From an uncultured bacterium (GTDB lineage Bacteria; UBP6; UBA1177): a stretch of DNA of 36,711 bases. The notes below the pieces were generated by a model. That model ran no database searches. It was not told the DNA's origin and saw only the letters and a program-made list of their open reading frames with translations. The position numbers and the translations under genes were made by a program. Each line of letters begins with the position of its first letter. Position 1 is the first letter of the stretch. Below are positions 8,034 through 34,175 of the stretch, piece by piece. The stretch lies in assembly GCA_947305505.1 (NCBI GenBank), contig CAMZDX010000008.1, positions 1 to 36,711 on the forward strand, given 5' to 3'.

Positions 8034-8053
8034 TTTTTGACGCGCCGTTAACT

Positions 8054-8093
8054 CTGTCGGAATAACGGGATTTCGGGATCACGTGATCCCGAC
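8054..8093. repeat. 8-bp-phased degenerate tandem repeat (about 4-5 units of ATNNCGRR), containing an 18-bp perfect palindrome and bracketed by CGCGCCGT...ACGGCGCG
   Basis: CTGTCGGA|ATAACGGG|ATTTCGGG|ATCACGTG|ATCCCGAC; CGGGATCACGTGATCCCG at 8074-8091; arms CGCGCCGT 8041-8048 and ACGGCGCG 8092-8099, with a second ACGGCGCG at 8114-8121. Confidence 0.7.
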
Positions 8094-8179
8094 GGCGCGA
8101 CCGATAAAAAACGACGGCGCGCCGGAAAAAATCATTTGAAAACAAATCGATCATGAGTAAAATCCATCGTTTTTTTGTA

Positions 8180-8216
8180 GAGACGTGACCTGACACGTCT
8201 TGCCGTGGTGCGTCTC
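8180..8216 (+). promoter_or_regulatory. Inverted-repeat leader upstream of cstA with alternative pairings
   Basis: AGACGTG (8181-8187) / CACGTCT (8194-8200), 6-nt loop. Alternative GAGACG (8180-8185) / CGTCTC (8211-8216). Ends about 20 nt before the cstA ATG. Confidence 0.5.
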
Positions 8217-8237: not shown

Positions 8238-9884
8238 ATGAACAGTATCTACATTCTTGTTTTTTCGCTTTTGTGGGTCGTTGTCGCTTATTTCTGGTAC
8301 GGCAACAGCGTCATTAAAAAGAAACTCATCGATCCTGTCGACGAAAATCCGACTCCTTCGCACTCAATGAATGACGGTGTCGATTTTTATCCCGCTCCGT
8401 CGATCGTCCTTTTTGGACACCACTTTTCGTCGATAGCCGGTGCTGGTCCTATCGTTGGTCCAATAGTAGCAGTAACGTGCTTCGGCTGGGGTCCTGCCGC
8501 GATATGGCTGCTTGTAGCCGGTGTCTTCATCGGTGCGGTTCACGACTATCTTTCGCTTATGATTTCTGTCCGCCATCAGGGAGTCAGCATTCCCGATACG
8601 GCTGAAAAATACGTTTCGAAAAAGGCAAAATTCCTCTTTCTGGTTTTTGTCTGGCTTACTATCGTCCTTGTCATCGCGGTTTTCGGCAACTTGGCTGCAA
8701 CTTCGATGATAACGAAACCTGAACTCGTCATCCCGACATTCGCCCTCATTCCGCTTGCGATGCTTTTCGGAGTCATCAATAAAAACAGATGGCTTCCGCT
8801 CTGGGCTAACACGATAATCGCGATCGCAGGACTTATTTTCCTAATCTGGCTCGGTTTCCAGTTCCCGATCACGATCGGAACACCGAAAACGGCTTATTCG
8901 ATCTGGTTTACGCTTCTTATGATCTACGGATTCGTGGCTTCGGTTACTCCAGTCTGGATTCTTCTCCAGCCGCGTGACTACATTTCAAGCTGGGTTTTGA
9001 TCCTCGGTATTTCGCTTGCATTCATCGGGATTTTCATCGTTCATCCCGACATGAATGCTCCTTTTGTCATCGCGGAAACTTTCAAAGATTCATCGCAGGG
9101 TCCTCTTGTTCCGTTCCTTTTCATTGTTATCGCTTGCGGCGCAGTCTCGGGCTTCCACAGCATCATCGCTTCGGGAACCACTTCCAAACAGCTTGACAGA
9201 GAAAAAGACGCGATGTTCGTCGGCTTCGGCGGTATGCTAATGGAAACGATCATCGGCATCGTCTGCGTCATCATTGCCGGTGCAGCAATAAAGTGGGGAA
9301 CAGGCGAAAATGAACTTCAGTGGATTTTCAAAAATTCGGGCGGTGCGCTCGGAGTTTACGGAAACGGTTTTGGCAGACTGACATCATTTATTTTCGGTAA
9401 CGAAGTCGGTGTCGTAATCGGTATCACTATTGTCAACGTCTTCATCATGACGACTCTCGATACAAGTGTCAGACTTGCAAGATTCCTCACGAACGAAATG
9501 ATTGGCGACAAACTTCCCGCAAAACTCCAGAACAAGTTTTTCTACACGATAGTTGCCGTTATTCCTGCATTCCTGCTCGGTATCACCGATTCGTGGGCAA
9601 GCGTATGGCCTCTTTTCGGCGCGGCTAACCAGCTTGTCGCTGCACTCGTTTTCATAATCTTAACTGCTTACTTCTATTCGAAAAACAAACCGATCAAATA
9701 CACGCTCTGGGCAACGATTTTCATGCTTACGATGACGATCTTCGCCCTCTGCTGGATGATCTGGAAATACTTCGTAGCTGCTCCAAACTACTTCCTCGGT
9801 TCTGTTGCGGTCGTTCTTGTTGTCCTTGCCGTTCTGATGATAATAGAAGGCTGCAAAAAGATCGGCAGCGCAAAAAAAGCGTAA
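8238..9884 (+). CDS. cstA: Carbon starvation protein CstA family transporter
   Basis: 548 aa polytopic protein; FGHHFSSIAGAGPIVGPIVAVTCFGWGPAAIWLLVAGVFIGAVHDYLSLMISVRHQG is characteristic of CstA. Confidence 0.93.
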   Translation: MNSIYILVFSLLWVVVAYFWYGNSVIKKKLIDPVDENPTPSHSMNDGVDFYPAPSIVLFGHHFSSIAGAGPIVGPIVAVTCFGWGPAAIWLLVAGVFIGAVHDYLSLMISVRHQGVSIPDTAEKYVSKKAKFLFLVFVWLTIVLVIAVFGNLAATSMITKPELVIPTFALIPLAMLFGVINKNRWLPLWANTIIAIAGLIFLIWLGFQFPITIGTPKTAYSIWFTLLMIYGFVASVTPVWILLQPRDYISSWVLILGISLAFIGIFIVHPDMNAPFVIAETFKDSSQGPLVPFLFIVIACGAVSGFHSIIASGTTSKQLDREKDAMFVGFGGMLMETIIGIVCVIIAGAAIKWGTGENELQWIFKNSGGALGVYGNGFGRLTSFIFGNEVGVVIGITIVNVFIMTTLDTSVRLARFLTNEMIGDKLPAKLQNKFFYTIVAVIPAFLLGITDSWASVWPLFGAANQLVAALVFIILTAYFYSKNKPIKYTLWATIFMLTMTIFALCWMIWKYFVAAPNYFLGSVAVVLVVLAVLMIIEGCKKIGSAKKA

Positions 9885-17529: not shown

Positions 17530-18711
17530 ATGCTTTCAAAAATGTCGGTTCCTTATCTGCATGATTCTCACAGCCACTTCACGCTTTATGCCGGAATGTT
17601 CAAGTCTATCTGCCTGAAAGAGGTCAAAACCAAAGAGACTGCGCTGAATCTGTTTGCAAAACTTGAGGATGGAAAGCTCAATTCGGCATACGGCTGGAAC
17701 AGCGGATTTTTTTCTTTGACAAAACCGGAACTTAACAAATTTCCACCCCTCATAATCTCCAATCTTTCGCTTCACGGTTTTGTGATGAATGAAGGGGCGG
17801 AAAAGCTGCTCAGACCTGAATTTGAGGAAATCATTGACAACTACGAAAATCAGGAATGGTGCGAGGAACATGTTACCGAACTTCTTCTTTTTTTCGTGAA
17901 GATAATGCCTGCAACTGTTGAAACTATGACGGAATTCGCCGAATTCCTGTTGAAAGAATGCGGAGTTTATGAAATCGAAGACATGCTCCTGCCATCGCAG
18001 GAAATATTTGAAATGATCGAATCTTCGACACTTAAAGAGCGCGTTTATTTCTGGGCTGACATCAACACTTTCCGCACTCTGCCGGAAGCAACAAAAAGAA
18101 AGATCAAAGGAATAAAACTTTTTGCCGACGGCGCTAACGGTTCCTGCACCGCTGCTTTGAGCAAGTCTTATTTAAACGGGAACAAGGGCGTTCTGACGCA
18201 CACTCTGCCGGAACTTGTAGGACTTCTTGAAGAGGCAGCCTCAACTGCTAACGGTGTTGCGATCCACGCTCTGGGAGACATTGCGGGCCGTCAGGTGGTC
18301 GAAGCCGCCGAAACTGTTCGTAAGCACGGAAGTGACCAGTTCATCAGGCTTGAACACGCGCAGTTTATCGATCTTGAAACGGCGAAAAGGGCAAAAAATG
18401 CTGGTATAGTTCTTTCTATGCAGCCCAATTTCACCGAAGATTCTCAGATCTATGCAGACAGGCTGCCGCTTGGTTTTGACGAAATGAACAACCCTTTCAG
18501 AATGCTTATCGACAAAGCTGGTTTTGTTCCGGGAAAAGATATGTTTTTCGGTTCAGACGGAATGCCGCACGGCGTGAAATTCGCGCTTAAACAATCGCTT
18601 TGCCCCGTTTTTGAAGGGCAGAGACTCACTTTGAGCGAATTTATTGCAGGTTACTGCACTGATAAAAAGTACGGCATTTATGAATTTGATCCGACAGAAA
18701 TTTTCGGATGA
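17530..18711 (+). CDS. Amidohydrolase family protein (Amidohydro_3/YtcJ-like)
   Basis: 393 aa; HDSHSHF, GIKLFADGANGSCTAAL, VAIHALGDIAGRQVVEA, RLEHAQFID, FFGSDGMPHG. In-frame ATG at 17545 is an alternative start. Confidence 0.85.
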   Translation: MLSKMSVPYLHDSHSHFTLYAGMFKSICLKEVKTKETALNLFAKLEDGKLNSAYGWNSGFFSLTKPELNKFPPLIISNLSLHGFVMNEGAEKLLRPEFEEIIDNYENQEWCEEHVTELLLFFVKIMPATVETMTEFAEFLLKECGVYEIEDMLLPSQEIFEMIESSTLKERVYFWADINTFRTLPEATKRKIKGIKLFADGANGSCTAALSKSYLNGNKGVLTHTLPELVGLLEEAASTANGVAIHALGDIAGRQVVEAAETVRKHGSDQFIRLEHAQFIDLETAKRAKNAGIVLSMQPNFTEDSQIYADRLPLGFDEMNNPFRMLIDKAGFVPGKDMFFGSDGMPHGVKFALKQSLCPVFEGQRLTLSEFIAGYCTDKKYGIYEFDPTEIFG

Positions 18712-18718
18712 GGTGAAA

Positions 18719-19789
18719 ATGAAGAAATCAAGACTCATAACTTTGGGAAAAGTGAAGATCGGCGGCGGCAATCCGCCAGTTATACAAACGATGATAACGA
18801 CCCCTTTGACAAGGCCTGATGAGGCTCTGCGCGAGGCAAACCGCGCGCTAGATCTCGGTTGCGTCGTTGTAAGAACGGCTTTCAAACACATTTCCGAGCT
18901 CGAGGGATTGAAGTTTTTAGTCGAAAATTTCAAAGGAGAAATCATCGCGGACATCCATTTCGACTACAAACTTGCTATTGCCGCGATAGAAGCAGGGGTA
19001 AGCGGAGTGCGCTTCAATCCCGGAAATGTCGGCGGTGAAGAAAATGTCAGAGCGATAATCGAAGCTGCGAAAAAACGCCCCGAACTTGCTGTTCGAATCG
19101 GCGTAAACGGTGGATCTTTGGATAAAAACATCCTAAAAAAATACGGCGGAGTAACCTGGGAAGGCTTGGTCGAAAGTTCGCTTTACTGGGCAGAGTTTCT
19201 TGAAAAAGAACTCGGATTTTTCAACTTCAAAATTTCTGCAAAGGCTTCAAATGTTTCTGAAACTGTCGCGGCGTGCAGAAAAATACGAGAGAACTCCGAT
19301 GCCCCGCTTCATGTCGGGATCACCGAGGCGGGCGGCGGAAAGCACGGAATAATCAAGGGAACTGCCGGGATCGCGATCCTTTTGAATGAAGGCCTGGTCG
19401 ATACTTTCAGGGTAAGCCTCACTGCTCCTATCGAAGAAGAGCTGCGGACTGCCAACATGATTTTGAAATCTCTCGGCATATTAAAAACAGGCGGAGAGCT
19501 CGTAAGCTGTCCCACCTGCGGAAGGACGCACGGAAAAGTTATCGAATACTACAACCGCCTGGAAGCGTGGTTCGATGAAGAAAAGTGGTGGATGAAACCC
19601 GCTCTCAAAGTTGCTGTTATGGGATGCGAAGTGAACGGTCCTGGAGAAGCGCGTGAAGCCGACCTCGGTATCGCGCTCGGCAAAGAGTGCGCCCTTTACT
19701 TCGAAAAAGGGGAGATAGTCAGGAAATTCGATGATCAGGATGAAGCTTTCAATTTCCTGATTGAGAAAATCAAAAAATTTTGGTCGTGA
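18719..19789 (+). CDS. ispG: 4-hydroxy-3-methylbut-2-enyl diphosphate synthase
   Basis: Start at MKKSRLITLGKVKIGG (ATG 18719, SD 'gaggtg'). Contains ADIHFDYKLA, VRFNPGNVG, ITEAGGGKHGIIKGTAGI, SCPTCGR and GCEVNGPGEAREADLGIA. Confidence 0.93.
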   Translation: MKKSRLITLGKVKIGGGNPPVIQTMITTPLTRPDEALREANRALDLGCVVVRTAFKHISELEGLKFLVENFKGEIIADIHFDYKLAIAAIEAGVSGVRFNPGNVGGEENVRAIIEAAKKRPELAVRIGVNGGSLDKNILKKYGGVTWEGLVESSLYWAEFLEKELGFFNFKISAKASNVSETVAACRKIRENSDAPLHVGITEAGGGKHGIIKGTAGIAILLNEGLVDTFRVSLTAPIEEELRTANMILKSLGILKTGGELVSCPTCGRTHGKVIEYYNRLEAWFDEEKWWMKPALKVAVMGCEVNGPGEAREADLGIALGKECALYFEKGEIVRKFDDQDEAFNFLIEKIKKFWS

Positions 19790-19832
19790 TCTCGGGATCT
19801 CGAGATCTCGGGATCCCGGGATTCCGGGATCA
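19783..19832. repeat. 8-bp tandem repeat array (about 6 units of ATNNCGRR) filling the gap between convergent ispG and methyltransferase genes
   Basis: gtcgtgat|ctcgggat|ctcgagat|ctcgggat|cccgggat|tccgggat|ca; includes the palindromes GATCTCGAGATC (19796-19807) and CGGGATCCCG (19809-19818). Confidence 0.85.
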
Positions 19833-20465
19833 AAGCTTGAGGCTAACCGTCAGCCCGTGCCCTATCGGCAAAATCGTGCTCAAAAGTTTTTTGTGGGCGA
19901 AAACGGCTCTGTTGTAGTCGTGGGTGTAGTCGCCAAGTCCGCTGCGGACGGTTTCGGTCACTCTGAAAAGTGAATCGTCGGCTGCTATTATTCCCCCTTT
20001 TTTGCAGAGTTTGACTGTCGTTTCAAGAAGCATCGGATATAAGTATTTGCCGCAGTCCTGAAAGATGAGGTCGAATTTTTCTCCTTTTTCCAGAAGTTTT
20101 GCAGTCTCAACTTCCGCCTTGCCGTGGATGAGTTCGATGATGTCGCCGTATCCCGATGCGGCGATGTTTTTTTCAGCCTCGGCGAAGATCCTGTCATGAC
20201 CTTCGATCGTGATTATCTTTCCGCCGGTCTTTTTGAGTGCCGAAGCCATCCAGATAGCCGAATATCCGTTGCTCGTGCCGAGCTCCAAGACCGATTTTAT
20301 CTTTTTTGCCCGAATGAGAAAAACGAGAAATTTTCCGACTTCGATCTCAATCATCGGCTGGATGTCGTTTCTGCTTCTGTTCGATTTTTCGAGTTCGTCC
20401 AAAAATTCGGAATCGTGTTTTATGAAATCCCTGAGATACTGCGCCGTTCTTGCGTCCATAGCCAA
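19830..20465 (-). CDS. Class I SAM-dependent O-methyltransferase
   Basis: 211 aa; VLELGTSNGYSAIWMA (motif I), IITIEGHDRIFAEAEKNI, FDLIFQDCGK, GGIIAADDSLF. Confidence 0.85.
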   Translation of the reverse strand: MAMDARTAQYLRDFIKHDSEFLDELEKSNRSRNDIQPMIEIEVGKFLVFLIRAKKIKSVLELGTSNGYSAIWMASALKKTGGKIITIEGHDRIFAEAEKNIAASGYGDIIELIHGKAEVETAKLLEKGEKFDLIFQDCGKYLYPMLLETTVKLCKKGGIIAADDSLFRVTETVRSGLGDYTHDYNRAVFAHKKLLSTILPIGHGLTVSLKL

Positions 20466-20586: not shown

Positions 20587-23500
20587 ATGAAGCATGTTTC
20601 ACTTAAAAATGATGTGACGAAAACGGTTTCGCTCGATGCAATATCGTCTGATCTTGTTTATGAGCAGGAAGAATCGCAATCGGGTTGGAAATACGATGTC
20701 AAGGAAGAACTCGGGCGCGGCGGAATCGGTAAAGTCATGGTCGCTTTTGACCGTACGATAGGGCGCGAGATCGCTTTGAAAGAGCTTATCAGCAGCAAAG
20801 AAGACGGCAGAATTCCTTCTTTGGACAAAATGAGAAGCGATGAAGCCCGTTTTTTAAGAGAAGCATGCGTCACCGGTCAGCTTGAGCACCCGGGAATCGT
20901 TCCGGTTTATGAAATCGGGCGCAAACCAGATGAAAACCGCTACTACACTATGCGTCTCGTCCGCGGAGTTACGCTTTCTCAGGCAATAAAGGATGCCGGA
21001 ACACTTGAAAAAAGGTTAAGGCTCCTTCCTCATTTCCGCGACATCTGCAACGCGGTCGCCTATTCACACAGCCGCGGAGTAATTCACCGCGACATAAAAC
21101 CCGAAAACATCATGATCGGGGAATTCGGTGAAACAGTTGTTCTCGACTGGGGTTTGGCGAAAGTAAAAGGTGAGGATGACGCCGCAGACAGCGAACTTCG
21201 CGAAGAACTCAATCTTCTCAAAGTCGAAAATATAGGCATGACTGTCAAAGGAAAGGCGATCGGAACTCCGGCATATATGTCTCCTGAGCAGGCGAGGGGC
21301 GACATTTCGGCAATAGACGAGCGTAGCGACATTTACTCTCTGGGAGCTGTTCTTTACGAGATCCTGACAGGCGAGCCGCCTTTTAAGGGGAAGGATGTCC
21401 AGGAAACTCTGGAAAATGTCAAATCGTCTCTTCCCGTTGAAATCACGGTTTATGAGCCCGCTTCTCCGCCGGATCTTTGCGCTGTTGTTGAAAAAACGCT
21501 GACAAAAGACCCTTCCGCACGCTATCAGTCAGCATTGGAAGTTGCAAAAGAAATCGAAAATTTCATGTCAGGCGGCAAAATCGCAGCCTATGAATACAGT
21601 TCCTGGGAAATGTTCAAGCGTTTTGTTTCCAAGAATAAGTCTCTTTCGGTGCTTACCGTGGCGCTTCTTGCCGTTTTGATTTTTGCTTCGGTTGCCGTTT
21701 TCGGTGCTTACCGCGATTCTGTCAGCAATGAAAAGGCTGCTCACCTCAATCTTTCGCTCGGATATCTCGAGTACGCCGAAAAACTTCTCAAAGAGGGAAA
21801 ATATTCCGATTCCGAGATTTTTGCCGCGGCTTCTCTTTACAATTCTCCTTTCAATCCGTTGAGTCCGTGGAGTTATTCTGATTCGTATCTTGCTGAAAAT
21901 ATCGAAGAAAGCCGCGAGCACATGCTTGAAATACAATCGCTGCTTTATCTTTCGCGGGTTTACGGCAACAACGCTTTCAAAGGCAATTTCGCAAATGTTG
22001 ATTTTGATGCGAGAAACATAGCGGTTTCTCCGGGAGCTTCTCTTTTTGCAGTTTCAGGCAAGAAAAAAGAGGTTAAGGTTTATTCGGCTGACGGAACAGA
22101 AAAGTTTACTTTGAACGGTCACAAGGACGAAGTGAGTGCCGTGGCGTTCTCTTCTGACGGCAAATTTATTGCAACCGGAAGCTGGGATAACAACCTTATC
22201 CTTTGGAATGCTTCAAACGGCGCAAAGATAAAGTCACTGCCGACTCTGGCAGGTGAAATCTACGCTCTGTCGTTTTCGCCAGGGAACAAGTTCATTGCTT
22301 TCGGCGGAACAGAAAAAACGCTCTGGGTCGTAAAAACCGACGATCTGACACTCTCTTCCGCAGGCAGGTTTGAGCTCGAAAACACTGTCCGCAGCATAGA
22401 CTGGTCACCCGACGGAAAAAAGATACTTGTTTCAGACAGTTCTGGAAAAATCTATGTCGTAAGGCGGAACGGCATTGAAAAAATTTTCGATTTTCACACC
22501 GAACCGGCAATATCAGTCCGTTTTCTGAGCGACGGGATCCATTTTGTCTCGGCAGGTTACGACAAAAAATTCGTTCTCTGGAGTCTGGTTTTTGATAAGC
22601 CGCTCAATGTCTTCGAGCACTGGGATGCTTTTTTCTCGCTGGATGTCTCTAATGACGGAACGCTTGCCGCAGCCGCAACGCGGGACGGTTCTATAAAGCT
22701 GATAAACCTCGTCACAAGGCAGGTCGACGACCTTCGAGACCACATCGGTTCGGTTTATTCTGTTGCTTTCCTTCCGATGGGAAATTCTCTGGTTTCGGTA
22801 GGAGAAGACCGCTTTATAAAGTTGTGGCGCACCGATTTTACGAAGGAAATGCAGCGTCTGCGCGGACATACGACCTATATTCCGTCTCTTGCATATTCTC
22901 CTGACGACAGATTTCTGGCTTCTTCAAGCTGGGATTACACGATAAAACTGTGGAATATTACGACTGAATCGGCTATTTCCTCTTTCGGTCTTGAAGGAAT
23001 AGTATCTTACAGCCTGGCGTTTTCTCCGGATGGTCAGTTTCTGGCAACGGGTGATTCCGACGGTGCGCTCCGCTTCTGGAATCCGCTTACGGGCAAGATT
23101 ATCTTTTCATATCCGCTCCACACCGATCAGATTTCGGCGATCAGCTTTTTCAACAGAGGAAAAAGCATAATTTCTTCCGGAAAAGACAGGAAAGTGAAGA
23201 TTTTCAATCTGTCCGAAAGGAGTGTCGCAAAAGTTATGGAACACGAAAACCCTGTAAATACCGTGGCTGTATCGGCTGACGGAACACTCGCTGCAAGTGC
23301 AGGCAGAAACGGAGAAATAAACTTCTGGAGCCTTCCGGAAGGTAAACTTCTTTTCGGAACTAAAGGCGGCAGCGGAAAATCTGTTCTTTCGGTTGCAATT
23401 TCGCCCGACAACAAAACCGCGGTTTCGGCGGATGAAGACGGAGTTATCAACAAGTGGGATGTTAAATCGAAAAAAATAGTCGAAACTTTTAAGGAAAATT

Positions 23501-23802
23501 CCGGAGCGGTCAATGCTGTCGCATTTTCGGAAGACGGAAAAATGTTTCTTTCGGCAGGCAGGGAAGTCGTTATCAGAAACACTGCCTATTCGCAGAAGAT
23601 AATGCAGTTCGACCTGCAGTACACAGCCTACAGTGCCGCATTCGAACGCAGCGGAAACTTCTTTGTCGTAAGCGACGGTGCAGTCATCAAACGCTATCCC
23701 GTCATTTCTGAAATGTGGAAACTTGATCCTGAAAAACTTTTGAAAGAGACACAGAAAGAGGCTGGCAAAAAACTCGAAGGTTTCAAACTTATCCCGTTTT
23801 AA
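20587..23802 (+). CDS. Ser/Thr protein kinase with a TM helix and C-terminal WD40 repeats
   Basis: 1071 aa; ELGRGGIGKVMVAFD, IALKE, HRDIKPENIM, DWGLAKV, GTPAYMSPEQARG; TM SLSVLTVALLAVLIFASVAVF; about 14 WD40-like units follow. Confidence 0.93.
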   Translation: MKHVSLKNDVTKTVSLDAISSDLVYEQEESQSGWKYDVKEELGRGGIGKVMVAFDRTIGREIALKELISSKEDGRIPSLDKMRSDEARFLREACVTGQLEHPGIVPVYEIGRKPDENRYYTMRLVRGVTLSQAIKDAGTLEKRLRLLPHFRDICNAVAYSHSRGVIHRDIKPENIMIGEFGETVVLDWGLAKVKGEDDAADSELREELNLLKVENIGMTVKGKAIGTPAYMSPEQARGDISAIDERSDIYSLGAVLYEILTGEPPFKGKDVQETLENVKSSLPVEITVYEPASPPDLCAVVEKTLTKDPSARYQSALEVAKEIENFMSGGKIAAYEYSSWEMFKRFVSKNKSLSVLTVALLAVLIFASVAVFGAYRDSVSNEKAAHLNLSLGYLEYAEKLLKEGKYSDSEIFAAASLYNSPFNPLSPWSYSDSYLAENIEESREHMLEIQSLLYLSRVYGNNAFKGNFANVDFDARNIAVSPGASLFAVSGKKKEVKVYSADGTEKFTLNGHKDEVSAVAFSSDGKFIATGSWDNNLILWNASNGAKIKSLPTLAGEIYALSFSPGNKFIAFGGTEKTLWVVKTDDLTLSSAGRFELENTVRSIDWSPDGKKILVSDSSGKIYVVRRNGIEKIFDFHTEPAISVRFLSDGIHFVSAGYDKKFVLWSLVFDKPLNVFEHWDAFFSLDVSNDGTLAAAATRDGSIKLINLVTRQVDDLRDHIGSVYSVAFLPMGNSLVSVGEDRFIKLWRTDFTKEMQRLRGHTTYIPSLAYSPDDRFLASSSWDYTIKLWNITTESAISSFGLEGIVSYSLAFSPDGQFLATGDSDGALRFWNPLTGKIIFSYPLHTDQISAISFFNRGKSIISSGKDRKVKIFNLSERSVAKVMEHENPVNTVAVSADGTLAASAGRNGEINFWSLPEGKLLFGTKGGSGKSVLSVAISPDNKTAVSADEDGVINKWDVKSKKIVETFKENSGAVNAVAFSEDGKMFLSAGREVVIRNTAYSQKIMQFDLQYTAYSAAFERSGNFFVVSDGAVIKRYPVISEMWKLDPEKLLKETQKEAGKKLEGFKLIPF

Positions 23803-34058: not shown

Positions 34059-34084
34059 TCAAAAATATCGGTACCGAAAAACTT

Positions 34085-34116
34085 GCCGGAATATCGTGAT
34101 TTCATAATTTCTGGAT
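34085..34116. repeat. Degenerate 8-bp-phased repeat of the same family as 8054 and 19783, followed by CTCGGCGGCGC
   Basis: gccggaat|atcgtgat|ttcataat|ttctggat then ctcggcggcgc. Confidence 0.45.
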
Positions 34117-34175
34117 CTCGGCGGCGCTAACGGAATCCTGATAGCTGTTCGGTGATTTGCGTGATTTTAAAGTCT

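Follow-up and report, generated by a model that had tools for sequence, protein, structure and literature searches.

An octamer array beside ispG as a probable arm-less member of a REP/MITE-like intergenic repeat family with an AT/CG register

The octamer array that fills the gap between ispG and its convergent neighbor is one member of a genus-wide repeat family with dozens of copies per genome. It lies in a stretch of 36,711 nucleotides (the window) from an uncultured bacterium, and we consider it probable that the array represents an arm-less form of a REP/MITE-like intergenic repeat whose register of AT and CG dinucleotides is read by a candidate factor. Dispersed bacterial repeats are usually recognised by their look-alike copies. 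The AT/CG copies share a spacing code only, and for this reason the family escapes ordinary repeat finders, which pick up no more than a faint tandem signal.

The ispG gap array and its genus-wide family

The ispG (gcpE) gene occupies positions 18716–19789 of the plus strand (TIGR00612 and PF04551, both above cut-off) and its open frame extends back to a TTG at 18644. The O-methyltransferase family gene (PF01596) lies on the minus strand at 19830–20465; further along the window, at 20587–23802, is a 1071-aa open frame that by eye resembles a Ser/Thr protein kinase with WD40-like repeats behind it. The array itself spans 19785–19830, has no strand and can be written CG(NNATNNCG)n; none of its AT or CG letters is altered from end to end. 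A first-pass annotation had described six 8-bp units in this gap, and the letters were as claimed, TRF reporting 19784–19831 with a period of 8, 6.0 copies and 85% matches. Both stop codons were likewise found at the array edges, the ispG TGA (19787–19789) inside the first unit and the methyltransferase TGA (19830–19832, TCA on the plus strand) in the last, where it overlaps the array end. The array is self-complementary, as noted earlier, and its predicted folding is strong on both strands (−35.8 and −27.6 kcal/mol).

Scores for the array were compared with those from the window simulated 100 times under a first-order Markov model. Its AT/CG register score was 24 against a null maximum of 12, and its lag-8 run score was 24 against a null maximum of 10. 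The annotation had itself named a chance low-complexity tract as the alternative should the array prove unique, and by this criterion it is not one, as such arrays recur in the genome.

Searching the same genome with a degenerate pattern of 14 fixed letters (ATNNCGNN x3 plus AT) identified 21 exact places, 56 with at most one mismatch, and none with the reversed control. Arrays of the form AT-NN-CG-NN were present in all 15 genus genomes (5 to 81 exact places each; reversed pattern, 0) and in 0 of 46 genomes outside the genus, four of them from the same family and 42 more distant. The array is thus not unique, and although its own assembly is fragmentary and 59% complete, the pattern holds in 15 separate assemblies. 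Its dinucleotides are also particular: when all ordered pairs of different dinucleotides were tried in XXNNYYNN, AT/CG gave 36 arrays in 791 kb and any other pair gave at most seven. One array of a genus genome (G014) is identical to one in the public record "Bacterium isolate RGIG2292 Goat_Duodenum" (L065), which argues that the genus is a ruminant-gut lineage.

Intergenic autocorrelation, used as a detector, was raised only slightly at lag 8, an Rfam 15 scan of the window gave no gathering-score match except a tRNA, and our literature search found no published description of an AT/CG octamer repeat.

Armed elements and the conserved register

The majority of copies are armed elements, about 61–65 bp long, with a fixed core of 37 bp between GC-rich inverted arms. 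A standard member starts with a GC-rich arm of 6–8 bp; next come the core and a short spacer, which is asymmetric, and the element closes with the complement of the first arm. In 20 copies picked for their GC-rich flanks, the core was exactly 37 bp long and consisted of CG(NNATNNCG)x4 with, in most cases, RYA after it; its AT and CG letters were 90–100% conserved, whereas none of its N letters exceeded 60%. Examples of arm pairs are GCGCCG/CGGCGC and GCCGCC/GGCGGC. In a separate test on 20 cores picked blind to their flanks, the match of arms to their own partner was 5.65, against 4.52±0.42 for re-dealt partners. With one copy as query, BLAST found over 100 matches at non-orthologous sites, most of them 75–93% identical, and the matches had sharp edges at about 65 bp.

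The window carries a full armed element on the minus strand at 8041–8099, with arms CGCGCCGT (8041–8048) and ACGGCGCG (8092–8099) and a 37-bp core at 8055–8091. A decayed AT/CG core with no strand, which has lost several of its AT/CG letters, lies in another convergent gap at 34084–34120. Compared with the standard armed member, the ispG gap array is without arms and has one additional unit; as the arms are lacking, it could stem from local octamer gain rather than from insertion.

The letters that resist change are those of the register. Across 11 orthologous pairs, which were few, hand-aligned and non-independent, and in which some differences may represent exchange between copies, differences affected 26 of 160 N letters but 3 of 182 AT/CG letters. 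The N letters are nearly free, running from A/T-rich to G/C-rich among copies with a variance 3.5 times the binomial, although G before CG (3/171) and C after CG (3/172) are rare. This freedom is neutral for folding: with AT/CG fixed, the fold energy of armed copies equaled that of random N letters (mean z 0.00), and the plain arrays, including that of the window, likewise fold about as the AT/CG letters alone dictate. Since the AT/CG letters resist change while the N letters are free and fold-neutral, the constraint, as judged from these alignments, falls on the AT/CG register and not on hairpin detail. A hairpin action is possible, though it would not be specially selected, as the AT/CG letters alone make the RNA fold. 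We also considered a covarying hairpin core and rejected it, as N pairing was not above permutation (z about 1.2, main axis).

We infer that the register is maintained because a trans-acting factor reads it, and the reader would most simply be a dimeric DNA-binding or recombining protein that loads with an 8-bp pitch. If a protein does read the register, the code would be of a new kind, and each genome would offer it dozens of native recognition sites. A comparable geometry is known from the met boxes of MetJ, which are tandem 8-bp operators made of self-complementary degenerate octamers. The AT/CG arrays are also tandem, self-complementary and degenerate, and their register would be compatible with that arrangement. 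By analogy, the arrays could be bound in tandem, one dimer per 8 bp, and have a regulatory or nucleoid role in the host; the fixed dinucleotides at an 8-bp pitch, the free letters between them and the core without covariation are all consistent with this. However, unlike met boxes, the AT/CG arrays are dispersed by dozens, vary in position and number between species and lie mostly outside promoter gaps, and we therefore regard a host regulatory or nucleoid role as quite improbable.

Gene ends and turnover at orthologous sites

We favor the repeat-family reading, in which the copies turn over in octamer register, through gain, loss, inversion, replacement and recombination, in the manner of REP and MITE sequences. 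Several sites bear on this. At the window 8055 site the element is present, inverted, replaced or missing, depending on the species. For one insertion, three species have the filled site and eight others the empty one; one of the filled copies lacks exactly 24 bp. Empty and filled versions were observed at L164:3398 and at the window 8055 site. At a convergent site other than the ispG gap, one array resembles an in-register fusion of two neighbors, and a nearly empty version also occurs; at a further locus the distance between the stops differs by 16 bp (two units). Such changes are the marks of a mobile or recombining repeat, whose copies may move by transposition or be rewritten by exchange.

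The gap next to ispG is itself variable. The comparison of unit numbers that the annotation had proposed revealed plain arrays touching both stops in four species, with 6 units in G000 (the genome of the window), 4+4 in G005, 4+4 in G009 and 3+4 in G014. The gap contains armed elements in G008, G003, G002 and G001 and a second octamer class, GT-NN-CG-NN, in G006, G011 and G012 (L217/L218/L220), and in G010 and G004 there is another neighbor gene and no array. The second class was identified in 13 of the 15 genus genomes (reversed control, 0), is generally frequent in genomes with fewer AT/CG arrays, and also shares the orthologous gap at the window 8055 site (site F8055; L284, L287).

The annotation had further suggested that changes in array length could alter the C-termini of both proteins. 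This did not hold in any of the 11 species that have the gene pair: the methyltransferase end is the same and IspG differs in its last two or three residues only, the C-termini barely changing because the stops sit at the array edges. A small C-terminal effect is possible elsewhere (G009 L191:14791 versus G006 L196:1205).

Length differences of whole octamers might also be expected of a neutral microsatellite that arises by slippage and has no reader, and perfect octamer repeats do occur in some unrelated genomes, e.g., Taishania. Yet the units vary at N and not at AT/CG, dozens of loci have the same register, together with fixed 37-bp cores and paired arms, and slippage would leave the one register in all copies unexplained. 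The slippage reading is largely refuted, and we give it very little credence.

Arrays are mostly intergenic, in genomes where intergenic DNA is about 6% by simple gene calls. Tabulating positions relative to gene ends, as had been proposed, placed 14 of 32 arrays in convergent gaps, compared with 34 of 262 background gaps. The arm-less copies, as exemplified by the window array, sit at convergent stop codons. Under the repeat-family reading, copies are found for the most part at sites that tolerate insertion, and gaps between convergent stops are foremost among these.

This placement could also indicate a bidirectional terminator or 3'-end mRNA stabiliser, as the annotation had put forward, kept under selection at convergent ends where any palindromic class would serve and the site would stay occupied. 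The convergent enrichment and the strong folding on both strands are in its favor. In addition, the gap contains an array, an armed element or a GT/CG repeat in each of the 11 species with the ispG-methyltransferase pair, and the convergent site at 9198–9299 of L170 is filled in nearly all species, although such occupancy is biased because the sites were chosen for their own-genome copy. An intrinsic terminator was nevertheless not borne out: a terminator scan of the window did not list the array, there is no T-tract directly on either side, the folding is no better than the AT/CG register dictates, armed copies also occur in divergent gaps, and most convergent gaps are without such a repeat. 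The convergent preference does not prove a terminator, since published REP families also favor convergent gaps, together with unidirectional gaps, near 3' ends (PMC3733652). Together, these observations make selection as a terminator or stabiliser unlikely in our estimation. The window array itself may have a 3'-end or roadblock role; within the repeat-family reading, this would be that of a weak hairpin or roadblock acting on the 3' ends from both sides, and nothing requires such a role.

Relation to known repeats and to arrays in Bacteroidales

The AT/CG family resembles REP, BIME and REPIN sequences in being short, dispersed, palindromic, intergenic, near stops, convergent-favoring and species-variable, with hairpin arms (PMC3733652, PMC8266576, PMC3116915). 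In particular, it consists of short dispersed intergenic palindromes near gene 3' ends. Published REPs have a stem of 5–13 bp with a loop of 2–20 (GTAG) or 4–5 (CGTC) (PMC3733652). In contrast, the AT/CG elements are about 61–65 bp long with an interior of about 46 nt between the arms rather than a short loop, have no GTAG at their arms and CGTC at the arm-core junction in some copies only, and have a core set by AT or CG at 4-bp intervals, the letters in between being free. Formal REP membership was thus rejected on the GTAG/CGTC tag and stem-loop geometry, and on the lack of Y1/RAYT: Y1_Tnp/RAYT (PF01797) was identified in one of 12 genus genomes searched, as a partial copy in G009, and not in the own genome, which is 59% complete.

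The window also contains, at 8177–8200, a separate GTAG-tagged hairpin repeat (GTAGAGACGTGACCTGACACGTCT), which has exact matches of 23–29 bp at dozens of sites that are not orthologous, in genomes of the genus, where Y1/RAYT is almost lacking.

The likeness to MITEs lies in the inverted GC-rich ends, the small size, the dispersed non-coding copies and the empty and filled sites; terminal inverted repeats are present, with arms matching their own partner above re-dealt arms. The AT/CG elements differ in having a terminal repeat of only 6–8 bp, and no target-site duplication could be made out at the empty and filled sites, nor was a parent insertion sequence found among the genes between neighboring copies. 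These genes, read by eye, were housekeeping-like and included no transposase. We count it against the repeat-family reading that no transposase or reader protein was found, that target-site duplications were not defined and that the arm-less window array may be a product of local octamer gain. Orthologous sites in the empty, filled, inverted and fused states offer material on how short intergenic repeats can spread when no transposase is in view.

When GTDB genomes were scanned for the pattern with 18 fixed letters, rumen Prevotella and other Bacteroidales made up most of the matches listed. Sampled Bacteroidales genomes contained 4 to 365 AT/CG places each (reversed control, 0), and no published description of these arrays was found in the literature. 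They share with the genus family the AT/CG register and the variable N letters. However, the Bacteroidales arrays (loci L041–L157) have no GC arms and no fixed core length and lie mostly in codirectional gaps, in one orientation relative to the genes and ending in AACGAAAA near the next start. We have treated them as a class that appears parallel to the genus family. It is tempting to propose a new class of DNA element, defined by a phased code of AT or GT then CG per 4 bp, rearrangement in octamer steps and a putative reader protein or recombination machinery with an 8-bp pitch, and occurring in two unrelated gut lineages; we offer this tentatively and consider it rather doubtful. As the same code occurs at up to 365 places in a Bacteroidales genome, recognition of the register by a protein is testable in cultured Prevotella. 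Outside both the genus and the Bacteroidales, positions 1869–2082 of locus L127 contain an array of ATGACGGAATGACGG adjoining CGGGCTTTAGCCCG hairpins.
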